Source of the DNA: Lawsonibacter sp.
GTDB lineage: Bacteria; Bacillota; Clostridia; Oscillospirales; Oscillospiraceae
NCBI GenBank assembly: GCA_022801435.1
Contig: JAAWSG010000015.1
Location: forward strand, 1 to 44,771
Length of the DNA stretch: 44,771 nucleotides
Reading direction: 5' to 3'
Part shown: piece by piece, positions 2,478 through 11,604 of the stretch
Numbering within the stretch: the first letter of the stretch is position 1
How the letters are laid out: each line of letters opens with the position of its first letter
The notes under the pieces: generated by a model
What the model was told of the DNA's origin: nothing
The model's database searches: none
What the model saw: only the letters and a program-made list of their open reading frames with translations
Program-made: the position numbers and the translations under genes

Positions 2478-4466
2478 TCAATTTCCATCCTCCAGAGGCG
2501 CGGTGAGCACCAGGCGGCTGAGGGTATCGTCCTCAAAGAAGAAGACCAGGCTGGCGCGGGTCTCGGGCGTTCCGGCGCAGTACCACAGATAGTCCCCCTC
2601 CAGGCCGGGGAAGGGCTCGTCCCGCAGCTCGGGGTAGCGCTCCCGCACCTTGTCCCGGGAATCCCCCATTTTGACCCCCCGGGTGGTGGGGAGGCGGCGG
2701 GTGGTGTCCAGGCGGGTACAGAACCGGTTGTTCCAGCCGGCGCGGATGTAATGGGCCTCATAGCGGTCCCCCGTCTCGACCCAGCCGTCCATGGTCTCCG
2801 CGGACCCCTGGGCGGTGAACACCCCGTCAAAATTCCCCGGGCCGTAGGCGGTGGGGTTCTCGGGGTATTGCAGGTCCCACAGGGCCACCTCATAGTCCAG
2901 AAGTCCGTGGGCGGCGGCCCGGGTCTGGGCGTCCAGGATATTGATCTCCGACTCGGGCATGGTGCAGACGCACATCTCAAAGGAGCGGAAGGAGGACAGC
3001 TTGAAAAATCCCAGCCGGGCGGGCTGCTTCTCCCAGGTCCCGTTCTGGAGGCTGGAGGTCTCTATGGCGTACACCCCCATCCAGTGGGGCTCCTCCACAC
3101 AGAAGTACCGGGGCTCCATAGCGTCGATACGCAATGTGAATCCCTCCCGCGCCAGGCACTCCTCCGCCAGGGTCCAGGCCTGCTGGGGGACGGGGACTTT
3201 TGTAAAAATATCCGCCAGCCTGGGCCGGGCGGTGAGGTAACCAGCATCGTACAGAGCCTCCACGGCGTACCAGTTGTAGGGGGACAGGCCGGCCAGCAGC
3301 TCCTGCTCCGGCGGGGACTCCAAGGGGTAGCCGTCGTAGAAGGTGGTAAGGAAGGTCAGTTTATCCCTCTCCTGGAGGAAGAGAAGGTGGGTCTGGCCGT
3401 CCATGTAGGAGGACTCCCCCGGGTCGCCGTAGTCCAGATCCCAGGCCACCAGAGTCAGGTCCTCCCGGTCCCGCCACTCCCGGCACAGGGACAGCTGGGA
3501 GAAGTCGCTCCACCGGGCCGTCTCCTCCAGGCGGAGGATGGGCGTGCCGGCGGTGGGGACCCCCTCCCACTCCGCCCCGTCAATATACTCCCTTGCGGCG
3601 GTGTATACCGGCTCCGGGGTGGGGTCTGCCTCTCCATCGGCGAAGTGGACCACCCCTAAATACTCCCACTGGGGCACGCCCCGCCATTTTGGGTCCATAC
3701 TGGTCCAGCCGGGGGTGCGCCGGTAGACCTCCACCAGACCGGGGCGGGGCAGGTATTTGTGGTCCCCCCAGCTTTCCCACTGGGACAGGCGCTCTGGTAC
3801 GTCCTCCAGCTGCTTCCGGCCGGTTTCGGGCACCTCGTCCACCTGGGTCAGGGTTTTGCCGTCGAACTGGAAGTACATAGGCGGGCCGGAGGTCTCCTCG
3901 CCGGTGTAGGTGGTGGAGTTGGCGCAGAGCAGGTGGAGGACGTTCCCCTCCTCCCAGACGGACCACAGCCCCGAATCGCCGCCCACCTCGTAGAAGTCGG
4001 TGAGCGCGCCCTCCTGGTCGAAGCACCCCAGGAGGAGATTTCGGAATCCTCCCGTGTGCGCTCCGGGGGTCCAGGCGGCCAGGAGCAGATTTTTCTCCTC
4101 GCCCGCCATGTTGAAGAGGACCTCGCCGCCGCCGTAGTCCGGGGAGTAGTCCTCCCGCTGTTCAAAGAGGGTCTGGACGGCCTTCTCCCAGTAGAGCATC
4201 CAGCGGGCCTCGCCGTCGGCCAGACCGTCCCCGGAGGAGCTGTCCCCGGCCGGGACGCTGGAGGAGTTGGGGGTTTCCTCCTCTCCCCGCTGGCAGGAGA
4301 CCAGATTCCCGCACAGCAGGCACAGGGTGAAGACCAGGGCCAGAAGGGGTACCGGGGGCCTCCGCTTGGGGCCGGAAAAAAGGTTTTTCAGCCGCCCCTC
4401 GGTCTCCTTGGCGGAACCGGACAGGCGGGTGGAAAATGGGGTGCGGGGAATTTTGTTGTGAGACAT
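2478..4466 (-). CDS. Large lipoprotein with BlaR1-juxtamembrane-like N-terminal cassette
   Basis: 662 residues, no family recognised for the main body. Residues 1-57 form the cassette shared with the products of 5993-7363 and 7394-8467: [13 protein letters not shown], a charged helix, then a hydrophobic stretch (about 40-57) ending in the lipobox LVSC with Cys58. After it comes an acidic, Ser-rich linker and a large, Trp-rich outer domain. The last 65 residues ([20 protein letters not shown], then [15 protein letters not shown]) resemble a small SmpA/BamE-like fold often seen at the end of clostridial lipoproteins; that is inference. The ribosome site AAAGGAG lies in a segment conserved upstream of all three cassette genes. 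It is the last gene of the BlaI/M56 block and no clear terminator follows. Confidence 0.8.
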
Positions 4467-4662: not shown

Positions 4663-5949
4663 CTATCCCGGCCCGTCCCCGTCCCAGCCCGTGGTCTCCG
4701 ACCGGAGCAGGGTCAGCCCGCCGTCCCTGTCAAATTCATACCGGTTGGTGGTGGTCACGCCGTTGCCCTCGTTGATCCGCTCCACCACCTGACCGGTCTC
4801 CGGGTCCACCTCCACCGGGGCGCACAGGACGGCCAGAGGGACAAAGCGCTCCGCCTCCCCATCCCACAGGAAGTAGAGGTAGGGCAGGTTCCGGCCCGGC
4901 ATCGTGTCGCAGAACAGGCCAAAATCCCGGGTGTCATCCCCATTAAGATACAGAAGCAGGGGCTTGCCCAGCTCGGAGCAGCCGCTGCTGAGTTCATCGT
5001 GGACAAACAGCCCCCAATCCGCCAGTTCACGCCAGTCCTGGGGGAGGAGGGTCTGGAGGAGGGCGGTCCCCCGGTAGACGGAGATCTTCTCCACCTTGAA
5101 GCAGTCCCAGCCGTACTCGCTCTCCAGGCGGCGCTCCTCCAGCACCAGCTTCAGCTCGTCCCCGTTGAGGTAGTCCACCAGCACCTCCTCGGTCCTCGCC
5201 GCCTGGGCGCGGGCGTAGGCCAGGAGGGCGGACAGGTCCAGCTCCATGGTGTGCTCGGGCGAGTCGTCCCCCTGCCAATAGACGGCCAGGGACCCGCTCC
5301 CCTCCAGCGCCTCCAGGGACAGGCTCACCGACGCCTCCCAGGACAGCCCCAGGAAGTGCTCCACCGCATCCCGGAGGGGACGGCAGAACACCCGCCCGTC
5401 CTCCTCCTGCCAGTAGAGGGCCGCCCCGCCCCGGGTCCCGTCGTAGCCGAAGGGATAGGCGGACAGAAGGAGATCGAACCCGTCCACCCGGGCGGTGTAG
5501 AGGTCCCCCTGACACTCGGCGATGAGGTCGGGGACCCCTCCGTCGTGGCGGAAGAACCGGACGGTGGGCTTTTTCCGCTCGGTGTGCTCCGCCCGGGAGA
5601 AGAGCGCCGCCCCGCTGCACCCCATCACGTCCTGGAAGGGGTAGAGGAGAATGTCGTCCTCCTCCACGCCGTAGGGGTTGTAGTACAGGCTGGTCCAGGT
5701 CTCCTGCGCCCCGGTCTCCAGGTCCCGGCACACCAGGCTGGTGGTCTGGGAGTAGTCATGTACGCTGGGGCTGTCCTCCAAGGTCAGCTCCCACCGGCCC
5801 TCCAGGGTGAGGGAGCGGGCCCCCTCCCCGGACAGGGTGTAGGGGACCAGTCTGGCGCGCTCCTCGGAAACCGGGTCCTCCCCGGGGGCGGCCTGGCAGG
5901 CGGTCAGGCACAGGCACAAGAGCAGGGTCAAAACGATGCTTCTTTTCAT
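4663..5949 (-). CDS. Lipoprotein of unknown function
   Basis: 428 residues. A compact signal peptide ends in lipobox LTAC with Cys18, so the protein should be anchored on the outer face of the membrane. It lacks the cassette of its three neighbours. The body is acidic and Trp/Tyr-rich, with no catalytic motif that I recognise; segments such as RYEFDRDGGLTLLRSE near the C-terminus suggest beta-rich repeats. The start is supported by AGAGGAAA seven bases upstream. It is third from last in the minus-strand block that begins with blaI, 43 bases downstream of the next lipoprotein gene, so it is likely co-transcribed and may act with them. Function is unknown. Confidence 0.78.
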   Translation of the reverse strand: MKRSIVLTLLLCLCLTACQAAPGEDPVSEERARLVPYTLSGEGARSLTLEGRWELTLEDSPSVHDYSQTTSLVCRDLETGAQETWTSLYYNPYGVEEDDILLYPFQDVMGCSGAALFSRAEHTERKKPTVRFFRHDGGVPDLIAECQGDLYTARVDGFDLLLSAYPFGYDGTRGGAALYWQEEDGRVFCRPLRDAVEHFLGLSWEASVSLSLEALEGSGSLAVYWQGDDSPEHTMELDLSALLAYARAQAARTEEVLVDYLNGDELKLVLEERRLESEYGWDCFKVEKISVYRGTALLQTLLPQDWRELADWGLFVHDELSSGCSELGKPLLLYLNGDDTRDFGLFCDTMPGRNLPYLYFLWDGEAERFVPLAVLCAPVEVDPETGQVVERINEGNGVTTTNRYEFDRDGGLTLLRSETTGWDGDGPG

Positions 5950-5992: not shown

Positions 5993-7363
5993 TCAGGTCC
6001 CGCCGTAGGTGAAGAATCCGTACCCTGTTTTCAGGTTGAGCAGTCCCCAGCAGCCTAGGGCGTCGGGGAAGGCGGAGTCCGTTCCGTGCCGGCCAGGCCA
6101 CCAGGTCCAGAAATCATACGCCCCGTACAGCTCGGTCCCCGGCTTGTCCCCGGCGGCCTGGGGGGAGTAGAGCACGAACCCCGCCCCAGGATGCAAAAGC
6201 GCGCCGTCCTCCCCGTCCAGACCGTAAGGGCCGCTGTAAATATAGCGGAAGCCATCCAAAATTTCCACCTCCCCCACCGGGTGGCCGTCATCCAGGACCA
6301 GTTCCTCCAGGGCGAGGGACCAGGAGGCGTCCGTCAGCTGGGCAAAGGTTCCGAACCGGCCATGGAACTGGCAGACGTACCGGGTCCCGTTGGGGAAGCC
6401 GTCCCCGTCAGAGCCCATATCGGAGTCCACAAACAGACCGGTGAAGGAGCCGTCGGGGTTCAGGGTCAGCTCGGTGGACCAGGCGCCGACTCCGCTGGAA
6501 AAGCACATATTCAGAGGTTCGTCCATGGGCAGACGGTCCACGGGCTGGGGCACGGGGAAGGGGACGCTCTGACTCATAGCCCAGAGGAACCCCTTCAGGT
6601 TGTCCAGCAGAGTCCGCTCCGGGTCCCGGGTGAAGATTTCAGGGAAGCGATCCAGCCACTCCAGCGTCTCGGGCTGGGGGTACTCGGGGACCAGCTCCCC
6701 ATCTTTCTCGGACAGGAGGACGCTGTGGGCCAGCAGAGCGTTCAGCTCCTCCACATGGGCGGCGATGTTCTCCGGGATGAACTCCCCGTGGAAGGGGGCG
6801 GCGAAGTTGAGGTCGAAGCTGCAATCGTTCCACTGATAGGTCTCCTCAAACTCCCCGGAGAAGTCGGAGACGCTATAGGAATACAGAAAGGAATCCTGAT
6901 GTTCCTCCACATGGCGGCGCAGGATGTAGTCCTTCCCCTCCAGGGTACACAGGAGGACCCCCGGACTCTCCCGCTTGACGAGCTCCTCCCCCTCCCAGAA
7001 CTGCACCTCCTTGTCGATGTAGCCGCTGGGCCGGTGCTCGACCACCAGCCGTATCTCCTCCGGGACGCCGTTGCGGTTCAGGTCGGGGGCCAGGTCCTGG
7101 AGGGCGAGAACAGGAGCAGGGTCTGGTCCGGACTGGGAGGCATCCGTCAGCCCGCTGCCCGAACCGGCTTCAGCGGGCCGCTCCACCTGGCAGGACACCA
7201 GGTTCCCGCACAGCAGACAGGCGGCAAACACAGCGGCCAGGAATACCGCCGGAGGCCGCTTGCCGGGACCAGAAACAATGCGGCGCAGACGGCGCTCGGT
7301 CTCTCCAGCCTTCCCGGACAGGCGGGTGGAAAACGGGGTGCGGGGAATTTTGTTGTTGTTCAT
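5993..7363 (-). CDS. Lipoprotein with BlaR1-juxtamembrane-like cassette and Asn/Asp-rich sensor domain
   Basis: 456 residues. The first 58 carry the shared cassette ([13 protein letters not shown], then GETERRLRRIVSG, then a hydrophobic segment and lipobox LVSC). Next comes a linker and a domain beginning LAPDLNRNGVPEEIRLVVEH, a calcium-loop-like Asp/Asn motif. The C-terminal third (SSGVGAWSTELTLNPDGSFT, then FPNGTRYVCQFHGRF) is a beta-rich module. I recall similar modules at the C-termini of clostridial M56 sensors and lipoproteins; I could not search for them. The ribosome site is AAAGGAA, seven to eight bases before ATG. The cassette DNA is almost identical to that of 7394-8467 although the bodies are unrelated. 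Probably a membrane-anchored sensor or decoy partner of the M56 protease; inferred. Confidence 0.8.
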   Translation of the reverse strand: MNNNKIPRTPFSTRLSGKAGETERRLRRIVSGPGKRPPAVFLAAVFAACLLCGNLVSCQVERPAEAGSGSGLTDASQSGPDPAPVLALQDLAPDLNRNGVPEEIRLVVEHRPSGYIDKEVQFWEGEELVKRESPGVLLCTLEGKDYILRRHVEEHQDSFLYSYSVSDFSGEFEETYQWNDCSFDLNFAAPFHGEFIPENIAAHVEELNALLAHSVLLSEKDGELVPEYPQPETLEWLDRFPEIFTRDPERTLLDNLKGFLWAMSQSVPFPVPQPVDRLPMDEPLNMCFSSGVGAWSTELTLNPDGSFTGLFVDSDMGSDGDGFPNGTRYVCQFHGRFGTFAQLTDASWSLALEELVLDDGHPVGEVEILDGFRYIYSGPYGLDGEDGALLHPGAGFVLYSPQAAGDKPGTELYGAYDFWTWWPGRHGTDSAFPDALGCWGLLNLKTGYGFFTYGGT

Positions 7364-7393
7364 AAAAATTCCTTTCTTTGTCCCCCATGGGGT

Positions 7394-8467
7394 TCAGTCA
7401 TTGGAATTGGAAATCCGATCCGCCGGGCCCAGCCGGTAGCCGCCGTCCTCATAGACCACGGGGAAGTCCGCCCAGGCCAGGTATCCCAGGGTGTCGCAGG
7501 AGAAATCGAAGGTCAGGCGGCAGTACATCTGTCCCTCCCGCAGGTCAAAGCTCACCTGATTCCCGGCCTCCATCTCCCCCTGGAAGCGGTCGATGAGCCA
7601 CGGTTCAATGTCCAGCTCCAGCTCCTGGTCTCCGCTGGTCAGGCGGGCGCGGGCCCTGTCCGGGCTGTAGGACATCCGGAGGGGGAGCTCCGAGTAGTCA
7701 GGGAGGGTGTAGGTCATGGTATCCAGGTCGAAGATGTAGAGGGACTCCACATAAACCCCGGTCCCGTCCCCCCAGGCCAGGGTGAGCATAGCCTCGGGCT
7801 GGCCGTCCCCGTCGAAGTCCTCCACCGCCAGGAGGGGATTTTTGCTGTACTTGACGTTGGTCTCCCAGCACAGGGGGAAGTAGGCGGTCCGCTCCCCATA
7901 CCGGAGGACAACGCCGTCCCGCTGTAGGTGTTTGGACCCCCACACCTGGAGGCTGATATCCCAGTCCGTCCCCTGCGGCATCCCGCCGAAGACGAAGTAG
8001 ACGGTCACGTCCGTCCCCTCGTCCGCCGCCACGGGGAGGAGCATGTCCCGCCAAAAATCCCCCCGGAAGGGGCCGGGGTAGAGCTCCACCGGCTCCCGGG
8101 GCAGCTCCTCCGCCGGAATGTTCTGGAGCAGGGCGGCCTCCTCCTGAGTGAGCCACTGGAAGGGTTCATCCATGACGCATTCCGGGGAGATGAAGTTGTT
8201 CAGCTCCCCGGCCAGCCACTCCTCCTCCGGGGGAAGCATAGACTGAGAGGAGGCCGGCGGTTCAGAGCGCTCCGGGGCCTCCGCCTGGACCACCTGGCAG
8301 GAAACCAGGTTCCCGCACAGCAGACAGGCGGCAAACACAGCGGCCAGGAATACCACCGGAGGCCGCTTGCCGGGGCCAGCAACAATGCGGCGCAGGCGGC
8401 GCTCAGTCTCTCCGGCCTTCCCGGACAGGGGGGTGGAAAACGGGGTGGGGGGAATTTTGTGGTTCAT
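7394..8467 (-). CDS. Lipoprotein with BlaR1-juxtamembrane-like cassette, next to the M56 protease gene
   Basis: 357 residues. Residues 1-57 are the shared cassette (KIPPTPFSTPLSG, GETERRLRRIVAG, hydrophobic stretch, lipobox LVSC, Cys57). The body contains AVEDFDGDGQPEAMLTLAWG, an FG-GAP/calcium-loop-like motif, followed by a beta-rich C-terminal domain. It starts 41 bases after the stop of the M56 gene, in another frame, with ribosome site AAAGGAA. Its cassette matches the juxtamembrane helix and fourth membrane helix expected at the C-terminus of a full BlaR1-type protein, a part the neighbouring M56 protein lacks. I infer that it may be the detached sensor half. Confidence 0.8.
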   Translation of the reverse strand: MNHKIPPTPFSTPLSGKAGETERRLRRIVAGPGKRPPVVFLAAVFAACLLCGNLVSCQVVQAEAPERSEPPASSQSMLPPEEEWLAGELNNFISPECVMDEPFQWLTQEEAALLQNIPAEELPREPVELYPGPFRGDFWRDMLLPVAADEGTDVTVYFVFGGMPQGTDWDISLQVWGSKHLQRDGVVLRYGERTAYFPLCWETNVKYSKNPLLAVEDFDGDGQPEAMLTLAWGDGTGVYVESLYIFDLDTMTYTLPDYSELPLRMSYSPDRARARLTSGDQELELDIEPWLIDRFQGEMEAGNQVSFDLREGQMYCRLTFDFSCDTLGYLAWADFPVVYEDGGYRLGPADRISNSND

Positions 8468-8508
8468 AATAATTCCTTTCTTTCAATCCATGCAGTTGAC
8501 CTGTATCC

Positions 8509-9429
8509 CTACATTTCGCGGGTCGGTCCGTGTCTCCCGTTGGACAGCCGCTCCACGGCGGAGAGGATGGTCCTTCCGTAGGCCGCGCGCTGTTCCGCCG
8601 GGAGCCGCCGCAGCACGTCCTCGTCACAGGCCAGCTCGGTATCCCGCTCCACCGCGCGCACCATGTACCACATCAGGGGGTTGAACCAGTGGAGGGCGTT
8701 GACCCAGATGGCCAGGGTTTTGAGCCAGATATCCCGCCTGCGGCAGTGGGTCAGCTCATGGAGGAGGGAACAGCTCAGCTCCTCCCAGGTCCAGTCCTCC
8801 CGCTGGGGCAGCAGCAGAGCGGGCCGGAGCGCTCCCGCTAGCATGGGAACTTGCAGCCCCTGACACACCAGCAGCCGGGGCCGCCGCTCCAGCTCCAGCA
8901 GGTCCCCCGCCCGGCGGAAGGCGTCGATGACCTCCCCGTCCCGGACGGGCTGGGACCACCGGCGGAGGTAGGCCAGGAACCGGAGGTGGGCCAGGGCGCT
9001 CCACCCCAGCATGACCACGGCCCCCGCCAGCCACAGCCCCAGCACCACCCGGGCAGGTGTGACCGCGGGGAGGGTCCATGGGGCATCCGGCACGTTCTCC
9101 TCCGGTTCCTCCTCTTTGGGCGGAGGCTGAGCCCCCTCCAGCGGCGTGCCGGCGGGGCCGTCAGGTTCGGGCGCGGGGACGGGGCTGGGGTTGGGCAAGG
9201 TCTGGACCGGCGGGGGACTGGCGGGCAGCTCCACCCGGATGGGGGCCTGCATCTCCGCCTGGGGAAGCAGGGGCAGGGGCAGGGCCAGACGCAGGCAGAG
9301 CAGCAGCCAGGCCCAGCACCGCCACCGCGCCCCGTACCGCCATACCCGCCCCGCCGCCGATAGGACCAGCACACCGGCGCTCCCCCCCAGGGTCAGTCCC
9401 CCCAGGGCGAGCAGAAGCTCCTCTGTCAC
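8509..9429 (-). CDS. BlaR1-like M56 family metalloprotease, short form
   Basis: 306 residues from a GTG start. That start overlaps the blaI stop as GTGA, and AGGAGG at 9445-9440 sits ten bases upstream; a GTG at 9438 would be only one base from AGGAGG. Membrane segments lie at about 8-27, 36-56 and 126-147, with a Pro/Glu-rich loop (60-120) between the second and third. The zinc site is HELTH at 224-228 with the downstream ELACDEDVL supplying the third ligand. Such proteases are activated by an outer signal and inactivate the BlaI repressor. This one ends at SNGRHGPTREM, just where family members continue into the juxtamembrane helix, fourth membrane helix and sensor domain. That missing part resembles the cassette of the downstream lipoproteins. 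Confidence 0.88.
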   Translation of the reverse strand: MTEELLLALGGLTLGGSAGVLVLSAAGRVWRYGARWRCWAWLLLCLRLALPLPLLPQAEMQAPIRVELPASPPPVQTLPNPSPVPAPEPDGPAGTPLEGAQPPPKEEEPEENVPDAPWTLPAVTPARVVLGLWLAGAVVMLGWSALAHLRFLAYLRRWSQPVRDGEVIDAFRRAGDLLELERRPRLLVCQGLQVPMLAGALRPALLLPQREDWTWEELSCSLLHELTHCRRRDIWLKTLAIWVNALHWFNPLMWYMVRAVERDTELACDEDVLRRLPAEQRAAYGRTILSAVERLSNGRHGPTREM

Positions 9430-9815: not shown

Positions 9816-9838
9816 CGCCGTCCTCCATCTATTTCAAA

Positions 9839-9862
9839 TGTAGTTGGTTCTTTTATACTACA
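9839..9862. promoter_or_regulatory. Candidate BlaI operator
   Basis: The inverted repeat TGTAGT-N12-ACTACA overlaps the -10 box and the expected transcription start of the blaI promoter. BlaI/MecI operators typically contain TACA/TGTA half-sites. Position and half-sites fit; binding is inferred. Confidence 0.55.
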
Positions 9863-9883
9863 CTTGTGGAAGATCATAGTCAA
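9855..9883 (-). promoter_or_regulatory. Promoter of the blaI-M56-lipoprotein block
   Basis: On the minus strand TTGACT (9883-9878) and TAGTAT (9860-9855) are spaced by 17 bases, about 40 bases before the blaI start. It should drive the genes from 9815 down to 2478. Confidence 0.8.
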
Positions 9884-11430: not shown

Positions 11431-11604
11431 TTAGCAGCAGCCGCAGTTGTCGTCGTTGTTGCAGCCGCACCCGCAGCCGCAATTGTTGTTGTTGCAGCCG
11501 TTGTTGTTGCAGCCGCCCCAGCCGCCGCAGCCGAACAGGATGATAATCAGGATAATGATCCACAGACCGCTGCCGCCCCAACCGTTGTTATTTCCACAGC
11601 ACAT
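11431..11604 (-). CDS. Small Gly/Asn/Cys-rich protein with one hydrophobic segment
   Basis: 57 residues, twelve of them Cys. The N-terminus MCCGNNNGWGGSGLW leads into a hydrophobic stretch (about 14-24, LWIIILIIILF). Then comes a tail built from CNNN, CNNNN, CGCGCGC and a final CGCC. The ATG at 11604 has GAGGTGA seven bases upstream, and an ATGTAA start-stop pair lies directly before it. No known family is recognised. The composition recalls small spore-coat or membrane-anchored metal-binding peptides. A mother-cell sigma-K-like promoter (11656-11684) and the presence of sporulation genes in the genome support a sporulation role, but this is inference. The opposite strand is open here too, but only because the codon repeats are low-complexity. 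Confidence 0.72.
   Translation of the reverse strand: MCCGNNNGWGGSGLWIIILIIILFGCGGWGGCNNNGCNNNNCGCGCGCNNDDNCGCC

Follow-up and report, generated by a model that had tools for sequence, protein, structure and literature searches.

The 44,771-nucleotide contig JAAWSG010000015.1 of a Lawsonibacter sp. (assembly GCA_022801435.1), which at its full length is called the window here, encodes a BlaI-type repressor, a short M56 protease and several lipoproteins. The locus raises the question whether a BlaR1-type receptor has been cut in two, with its protease and sensor halves encoded by separate genes, as an earlier note made from the sequence alone had proposed. Our analysis makes it likely that the locus encodes a split, multi-sensor BlaR1-BlaI receptor, in which one protease core is served in trans by exchangeable sensors that would complete its active site. 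The system is very probably a repressor-cutting receptor. This reading starts from what sequence comparison gives: the anatomy of the genes, the homology and conservation of a segment shared by the lipoproteins, one break within the family, recurrence of the break elsewhere and conserved dyads upstream of blaI.

A short protease and its missing segment

The protease is an M56 peptidase by family match, catalytic residues and BlaR1-like fold. It matched PF05569 with 150.9 bits (cut-off 31) over profile positions 13-272 of 296, and the six top Foldseek matches of its predicted structure (pLDDT 82) were BlaR1 chains (E 6.2e-06 to 3.1e-04); the score against NCBIfam blaR1_generic was 109 bits, below the cut-off of 400. 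The residues HExxH 227-231, D236, E268xxxD272, Y287 and I291, the equivalents of BlaR1 His201, His205, Asp210, Glu242, Asp246, Tyr261 and Ile265, were invariant in 15 aligned split M56 proteins. As the earlier note had said, the protein (309 residues from its GTG, 306 if started at 9429) ends soon after the zinc domain: its end lies 14 residues past the last residue that phmmer aligned with BlaR1, residue 269, and in the predicted structure the helix 281-302 is followed by only 7 residues, so that the gene ends soon after helix alpha8. The short M56 has no autocleavage loop, alpha9, last membrane helix or sensor, and those parts sit on the neighbouring genes.

The lipoproteins LP1-LP3 share an N-terminal segment of about 56 residues, referred to as the cassette, whose hydrophobic helix closes in an LVSC lipobox. 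The described opening is present in all three, including the n-region of about 38 residues, which is conserved; the short n-region that is a usual feature of bacterial lipoproteins is therefore not found here. The note had placed three such lipoproteins between positions 5993 and 9429. LP1-LP3 do have the cassette, but LP3 lies outside that interval, and a fourth array lipoprotein (5949-4663) is without one. The ectodomain of the latter has relatives in loci L078 and L099 (E 1.9e-154 and 2.3e-145), where they are part of cassette genes, and its cassette seems to have been replaced by an ordinary signal peptide. Further cassettes were not found in this genome in a search at E≤1 (108 contigs, 81% complete), and its three other M56 loci are full length. 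In the predicted structure of LP2 the cassette region forms helices 19-31 and 39-53, at a mean pLDDT of only 56.

When the cassette alone was used as a query in the genus, the strong matches were tandem genes beside a short M56, and the weak matches that were fetched were the stretch directly after the M56 domain in full-length receptors. Likewise, 13 of the 14 weaker matches fetched from the family search (L198-L211) directly followed an M56 domain in the same frame, the exception being L198, with no M56 in reach. The alignment is colinear, as illustrated by the motif LTTGFSGSKREVFARFRAMMD...GSLVGCQ of the fused receptor in L112 and split cassettes such as FSTPLSGSARETEIRLRNIF...GNLVSCQ. To quantify the likeness, a model trained on 25 fused M56 segments only was scored on 182 split cassettes, a set obtained by length filters and without L198 that was also used for the pair identities, the start-codon count and the ectodomain clustering. 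The median score was 43.5 bits (5-95%: 30.0 to 56.5), in comparison to a maximum of 21.3 bits over 910 shuffles preserving composition and lipobox, and of 9.0 bits over control lipoprotein-like N-termini, a small control because only 17 of these passed the filter. Thus, 180/182 cassettes scored above the best shuffle and all 182 above the best control N-terminus, and with the membrane helix removed 163/182 and 179/182 still did so. These comparisons show homology between the cassette and the part of BlaR1-type receptors that follows the protease domain. Searches of Pfam and NCBIfam with 26 members gave no convincing known domain for it; a match to NCBIfam 'lipo-invert' (E 0.0035 in one of ten proteins, 0.15 in one of the 26 members) was dismissed as noise.

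The position of the break was read against S. aureus BlaR1. There the autocleavage loop spans residues 271-289 and is cleaved at Ser283-Phe284, and helix alpha9, which carries Arg294, is swapped between protomers together with the last membrane helix, and Arg294 of one protomer pairs with Asp246 of the other (PMC9834060). A profile built from 21 fused receptors matched S. aureus BlaR1 (8EXP) with E 4.3e-25, pairing their LttgF with Leu280-Phe284 and an invariant Arg with Arg294. From just ahead of the Leu280 equivalent the cassette covers the P4-P1' strand and the residue equivalent to Arg294, and it also includes the last membrane helix. Since the short M56 ends soon after the Ile265 equivalent, the gene break lies inside the loop at which BlaR1 cuts itself. 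The Arg294-equivalent residue was present in all 209 covering rows (183/183 split and 26/26 fused; two split rows do not reach the position), and the P1' position was Leu, Phe or Met in 183/183 covering split rows. The cassette should therefore supply in trans both a substrate strand and one residue of the active site. These two tallies, and that of the lipobox, count L198 as split, although this locus could hold a fragment of an M56 gene.

Among 219 cassette rows, 211 reach model position 46 and could be scored for the lipobox. A Cys ending the helix was found in 178/185 split and 20/26 fused rows, in each case after [LIM]-[VAITG]-[SAGT]. The high share in fused rows indicates that the lipobox is probably older than the gene split in this family. 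The proposal that the sensor half was made into lipoproteins therefore has to be modified. Four Cys-less copies in the genus retain the cassette, and the Cys-less rows suggest that lipidation is not indispensable. In S. aureus BlaR1, signal peptidase I cuts right after the last membrane helix (PMC9834060), a precedent for a signal-peptidase cut at this helix, and most sensors may be lipidated and cut by signal peptidase II at the lipobox. A lipobox-like motif was also observed at the last-helix end of full-length M56 receptors from several Clostridia families (L199-L206, L212, L213, L216, L218, L223, L236, L241, L244, L246), which may be cut post-translationally into two parts by signal peptidase II.

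Sensor arrays and their history

Cassette matches are widespread. They occurred in 50/64 genomes of the genus (E≤0.1, weak matches to fused M56 included), so that the segment is no chance feature of the window. With fused forms counted and only the best candidates scored in most genomes, they were found in 107/400 genomes of the family (E≤1e-3), in 22/394 of the order (E≤1e-5), in 49/391 of the class (E≤1e-4) and in 9/61 of family f19 (E≤1e-3). All 14 named loci that had been found by their M56 (Flavonifractor, Pseudoflavonifractor, Colidextribacter, Oscillospiraceae and Clostridiales) also had cassettes. We fetched 70 loci with at least one full cassette, 44 from the genus and 26 from other genera of the family, some genomes giving two or three. 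The number of cassette copies per locus ranged from one to seven, with a single copy in 21 loci, and in some loci the gene order was BlaI-cassette-M56-cassette. A short M56 was present in 61/70 loci; of the nine without it, six were within about 1.5 kb of a contig end. In one of the others, L090, positions 3021-3243 hold the start of a BlaI (query residues 4-38) that continues in frame as a cassette. Neither the remainder of the BlaI nor an M56 was found in this locus, which resembles the remnant of a deletion or else an orphan sensor.

The earlier note had considered its idea lost if close full-length homologues ended at the same place or if the cassettes failed to align with the M56 juxtamembrane region. 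The split orthologues do literally stop there, but they adjoin cassette genes in the 61 loci just mentioned, whereas the full-length paralogues continue; the alignment, as described above, did not fail. The fused forms that the note had suggested looking for exist as well. The same cassette is found colinearly in full-length M56 receptors of Clostridia whose last helix ends in a lipobox (L111-L116, L199-L206 and others), and nine fused receptors of the genus share a homologous ectodomain with a single split protein, located in L103 (best E 6.6e-30). Such full-length receptors differ from the arrays in that one gene carries one sensor. At the sequence level, the cutting of the receptor in two is thus supported. 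In L126 (G042:C23), a tandem pair of full-length M56 genes was observed behind a single BlaI.

In a tree of 85 M56 rows the split proteins of the family formed one clade nested among fused ones (SH-aLRT 90), save one mislabelled row, L117, which was labelled fused though it lies beside a short M56 gene; in a thinned tree of 112 rows the support of the split clade was 95. On these trees there is one break within this family. Split systems were also found in other families of the class (L221, L239, L240, L249, L254, L256, L257, L272 and L275, the match in L275 being weak and L254 having F in place of the lipobox Cys). A single clade for all split M56 proteins was rejected (p-AU 0.0104, in a test with a quick tree and uneven composition, in which the starred branches alone force only one change). 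This makes at least two breaks likely, though not certain, and the same break, within the self-cleavage loop of BlaR1, probably arose at least twice.

The outer domains of array mates differ. Within arrays, 206 of 231 pairs were without detectable ectodomain similarity while their mean cassette identity was 0.77, in comparison to 0.50 in random pairs between arrays. At the same time, ectodomains recur across arrays, often piecewise, and relatives of the LP1 ectodomain are among them. In the genus, the mean cassette identity was 0.80 for array mates with unrelated ectodomains (171 pairs) and 0.66 for members of different arrays with related ectodomains (1185 pairs), and of the 110 members having both kinds of partner, 72 were nearer to the array mate, 29 nearer to the ectodomain relative and 9 tied. 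Such likeness among array mates would fit a shared docking partner acting via exchange or conversion, with a contribution from shared ancestry within a genome. Ectodomain partners of the other kind were found at E≤1e-3 for 15/26 fused receptors. A penicillin-binding sensor domain was found neither in LP1-LP3 nor in ten scanned cassette proteins of relatives, and ectodomain searches (Pfam, NCBIfam, PHROGs, Foldseek) gave weak FG-GAP matches only, plus one XAC2610-type match in L161 (E 3.3e-10, above cut-off).

A possible mechanism and its alternatives

The arrangement suggests the following scheme for complex formation, gating, BlaI cleavage, repressor binding and lipid processing, which we infer from the comparison with BlaR1. 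One gene encodes the protease core, made up of the zinc domain, membrane helices 1-3 and a helix alpha8 that bears the residues equivalent to Tyr261 and Ile265. Each of several neighbouring genes encodes the remainder of a receptor: the substrate strand P4-P1', an alpha9 bearing the equivalent of Arg294, a last membrane helix and an outer domain that varies between the genes. A sensor would dock on the shared core via its cassette, at the place of the domain-swapped alpha9-alpha10 of BlaR1, giving the active-site arginine while its strand blocks the active site. A signal at the outer domain would release the strand, whereupon the protease would cut BlaI (in this group, at an N-F bond) and derepression would follow at the promoter of the operon, with its two conserved operator-like dyads. 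At their lipobox, most sensors may be lipidated and cut by signal peptidase II, close to the place of signal peptidase I cleavage in S. aureus BlaR1. In the fullest form of this scheme the receptor is combinatorial: the core is inactive alone, any of up to seven sensors brings the arginine, an inhibitory strand and a distinct outer domain, one repressor-cutting protease reads several signals, and the break arose at least twice. We lean slightly towards this full form, at little better than an even chance.

Several observations weigh against a split, multi-sensor receptor. In L087, L090 and L096, which lie away from contig ends, a cassette gene stands with no M56 nearby; the window array includes a lipoprotein that has no cassette; and no regulated gene beyond the array was identified. 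The ectodomains are not all distinct, since loose single-linkage joins 168/182 split and 8 fused ones, and a fused relative was found at E≤1e-3 for only 16/182 split ectodomains. The match between the M56 model and BlaR1 covers about half of the model (TM by query 0.43-0.46, Foldseek), and the poor LP2 model gave no PDB match at E≤0.001, so that no ligand is suggested. Seven of the 185 split rows are without the Cys (one of them the doubtful L198), and 19/182 cassettes fall short of the best shuffle when the membrane helix is left out. Moreover, if signal peptidase II cuts most sensors, it would sever the cassette from the ectodomain and weaken a mechanical link.

The alternative that survives best, though we consider it unlikely, is that the cassette proteins are outputs and not sensors: BlaI would control them as surface lipoproteins, their signal peptides would derive from an M56 piece that was duplicated, and the short M56 would sense by its own outer loop and work without them. 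It would account for the operator pair borne by the array itself, whose operon showed no further conserved gene (the flanking genes appear to be shared synteny), for the lipobox in most copies, for the three loci lacking an M56 and for the array lipoprotein lacking a cassette. However, if the cassette were no more than a signal peptide, one would not expect the P1' residue and the Arg to be conserved in all copies that cover them, or array mates to resemble each other more closely; the short M56 is without an Arg294 equivalent, and the four Cys-less copies of the genus keep the cassette.

Roughly half as probable is a retained signal peptide that reports lipoprotein maturation, where uncut prolipoproteins keep the M56 inactive and processing by signal peptidase II, or its failure, is the signal. 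The prevalence of the lipobox, whose -3 position is always L, I or M, fits this idea, as does the cut by signal peptidase I just past the same helix in S. aureus BlaR1 (PMC9834060). However, it leaves the maintenance of ectodomain families across species unexplained, and the rows without Cys speak against it.

An assembly error or a decayed full-length gene could be suspected from the fragmented window genome and from some truncated cassettes. This has a negligible probability and is ruled out by the recurrence of the same break in 61 loci, including single-contig genomes such as G005 and G007, by a start codon with a loose Shine-Dalgarno motif in reach for 181/182 split cassette genes versus 566/3640 random places, and by frames relative to M56 spread 24/22/13 over the three frames, which also excludes a frameshift. 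Convergence of a charged helix and a membrane helix, conceivable because the segment is short and part of the cassettes fail without the membrane helix, is ruled out with the same near-certainty by the far lower scores of the shuffles and of the 17 control N-termini.

The split, multi-sensor receptor shares with BlaR1-BlaI of S. aureus (PDB 8EXP-8EXT; PMC9834060) the protease fold, the catalytic residues, the autocleavage strand and Arg294, as well as a last membrane helix followed by a signal-peptidase site and a partner BlaI with an N-F site. It differs in having two kinds of gene product, often with several sensor genes per protease, in the lack of a penicillin-binding domain in the searched sensors and in a lipobox in place of the signal peptidase I site. 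An apt name should therefore be BlaR1-like, split and multi-sensor, given that the one-chain and penicillin-sensor features of BlaR1 are absent. How outside sensing controls the cutting of BlaI inside is called an outstanding question in the S. aureus report, where a hypothesis is offered (PMC9834060). Nature has apparently separated the receptor halves and swapped sensors many times, so that simple co-expression could be used to test the coupling. For gut Clostridia, the findings suggest a bacterial receptor with plug-in sensors sharing one docking piece. They also suggest that common gut bacteria use a single proteolytic switch to read several envelope signals, and that receptor halves are numerous among the unnamed lipoproteins of these genomes. 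Cytokine receptors resemble this arrangement in combining a common signalling chain with variable ligand chains; in the split M56 system the shared chain is a protease, and we know of no relation by descent between the two. Among the papers listed in literature searches, judged by title and start of abstract, none described a split M56 receptor.

Repressor, promoter and further features

The repressor is of the BlaI/MecI type by its match to PF03965 (82.9 bits, cut-off 22.6). It has a PRNF motif close to where BlaI is known to be cleaved, as judged by eye. A [ND]F pair at the expected place was found in 46/59 BlaI rows labelled split and 2/32 labelled fused; the two latter (L093 and L117) are actually split, both lying beside short M56 genes, and one row labelled split, the second in L187, belongs to another M56. 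PRNF itself was common in BlaI of split loci and absent from the 30 truly fused rows examined.

The region upstream of blaI is likely a promoter with two conserved operator-like dyads. TGTAGT was present there in 54/60 rows and ACTACA in 53/60, and the strict operator pair was found at most 200 nt upstream of blaI in 48/60 BlaI rows. In the genus the pair occurred at 55 sites in 46/64 genomes, and the reversed control pattern at 14 sites; in the window taken alone the two dyads were not significant.

Table 1. Coordinates of the receptor genes, cassettes and promoter elements in the window.
Feature	Position	Strand	Remarks
blaI, BlaI-type repressor, 129 aa	9426..9815	-	PF03965, E 2.8e-23
Short M56 protease, 309 aa	8509..9438	-	PF05569; GTG start overlapping blaI
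LP1, cassette protein 1, 357 aa	7394..8467	-	AAAGGA 5' of ATG, in-frame TGA upstream
LP1 cassette	8294..8461	-	substrate strand (P1' Leu14), alpha9-like helix with Arg24, last membrane helix, LVSC
LP2, cassette protein 2, 456 aa	5993..7363	-	
LP2 cassette	7187..7354	-	Leu15 = P1', Arg25 = Arg294 equivalent
Array lipoprotein between LP2 and LP3	4663..5949	-	ordinary short signal peptide, no cassette
LP3, cassette protein 3, 662 aa	2478..4466	-	
LP3 cassette	4290..4457	-	73% identity with LP2 cassette
-35 box TTGACT of likely operon promoter	9878..9883	-	CTTGAC upstream of 48/60 BlaI rows
-10 box TAGTAT	9855..9860	-	17 bases from -35; TAGTAT upstream of 57/60 BlaI rows
Operator-like dyad 1	9857..9870	not assigned	overlaps -10; conserved pair
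Operator-like dyad 2	9831..9844	not assigned	between promoter and blaI; conserved pair

Rfam gave no match at gathering score within the window. By coordinates, the operator pair was also observed near other M56 matches (e.g., G027:C216, G035:C108, G036:C1 and G045:C102), and fused systems may share the operator of the arrays. In addition, a 57-aa membrane peptide rich in Cys, Gly and Asn is encoded at 11431-11604 of the window (minus strand), and repeat-rich stretches near the arrays, which cluster in 21 loci, may be of the same type as this peptide.

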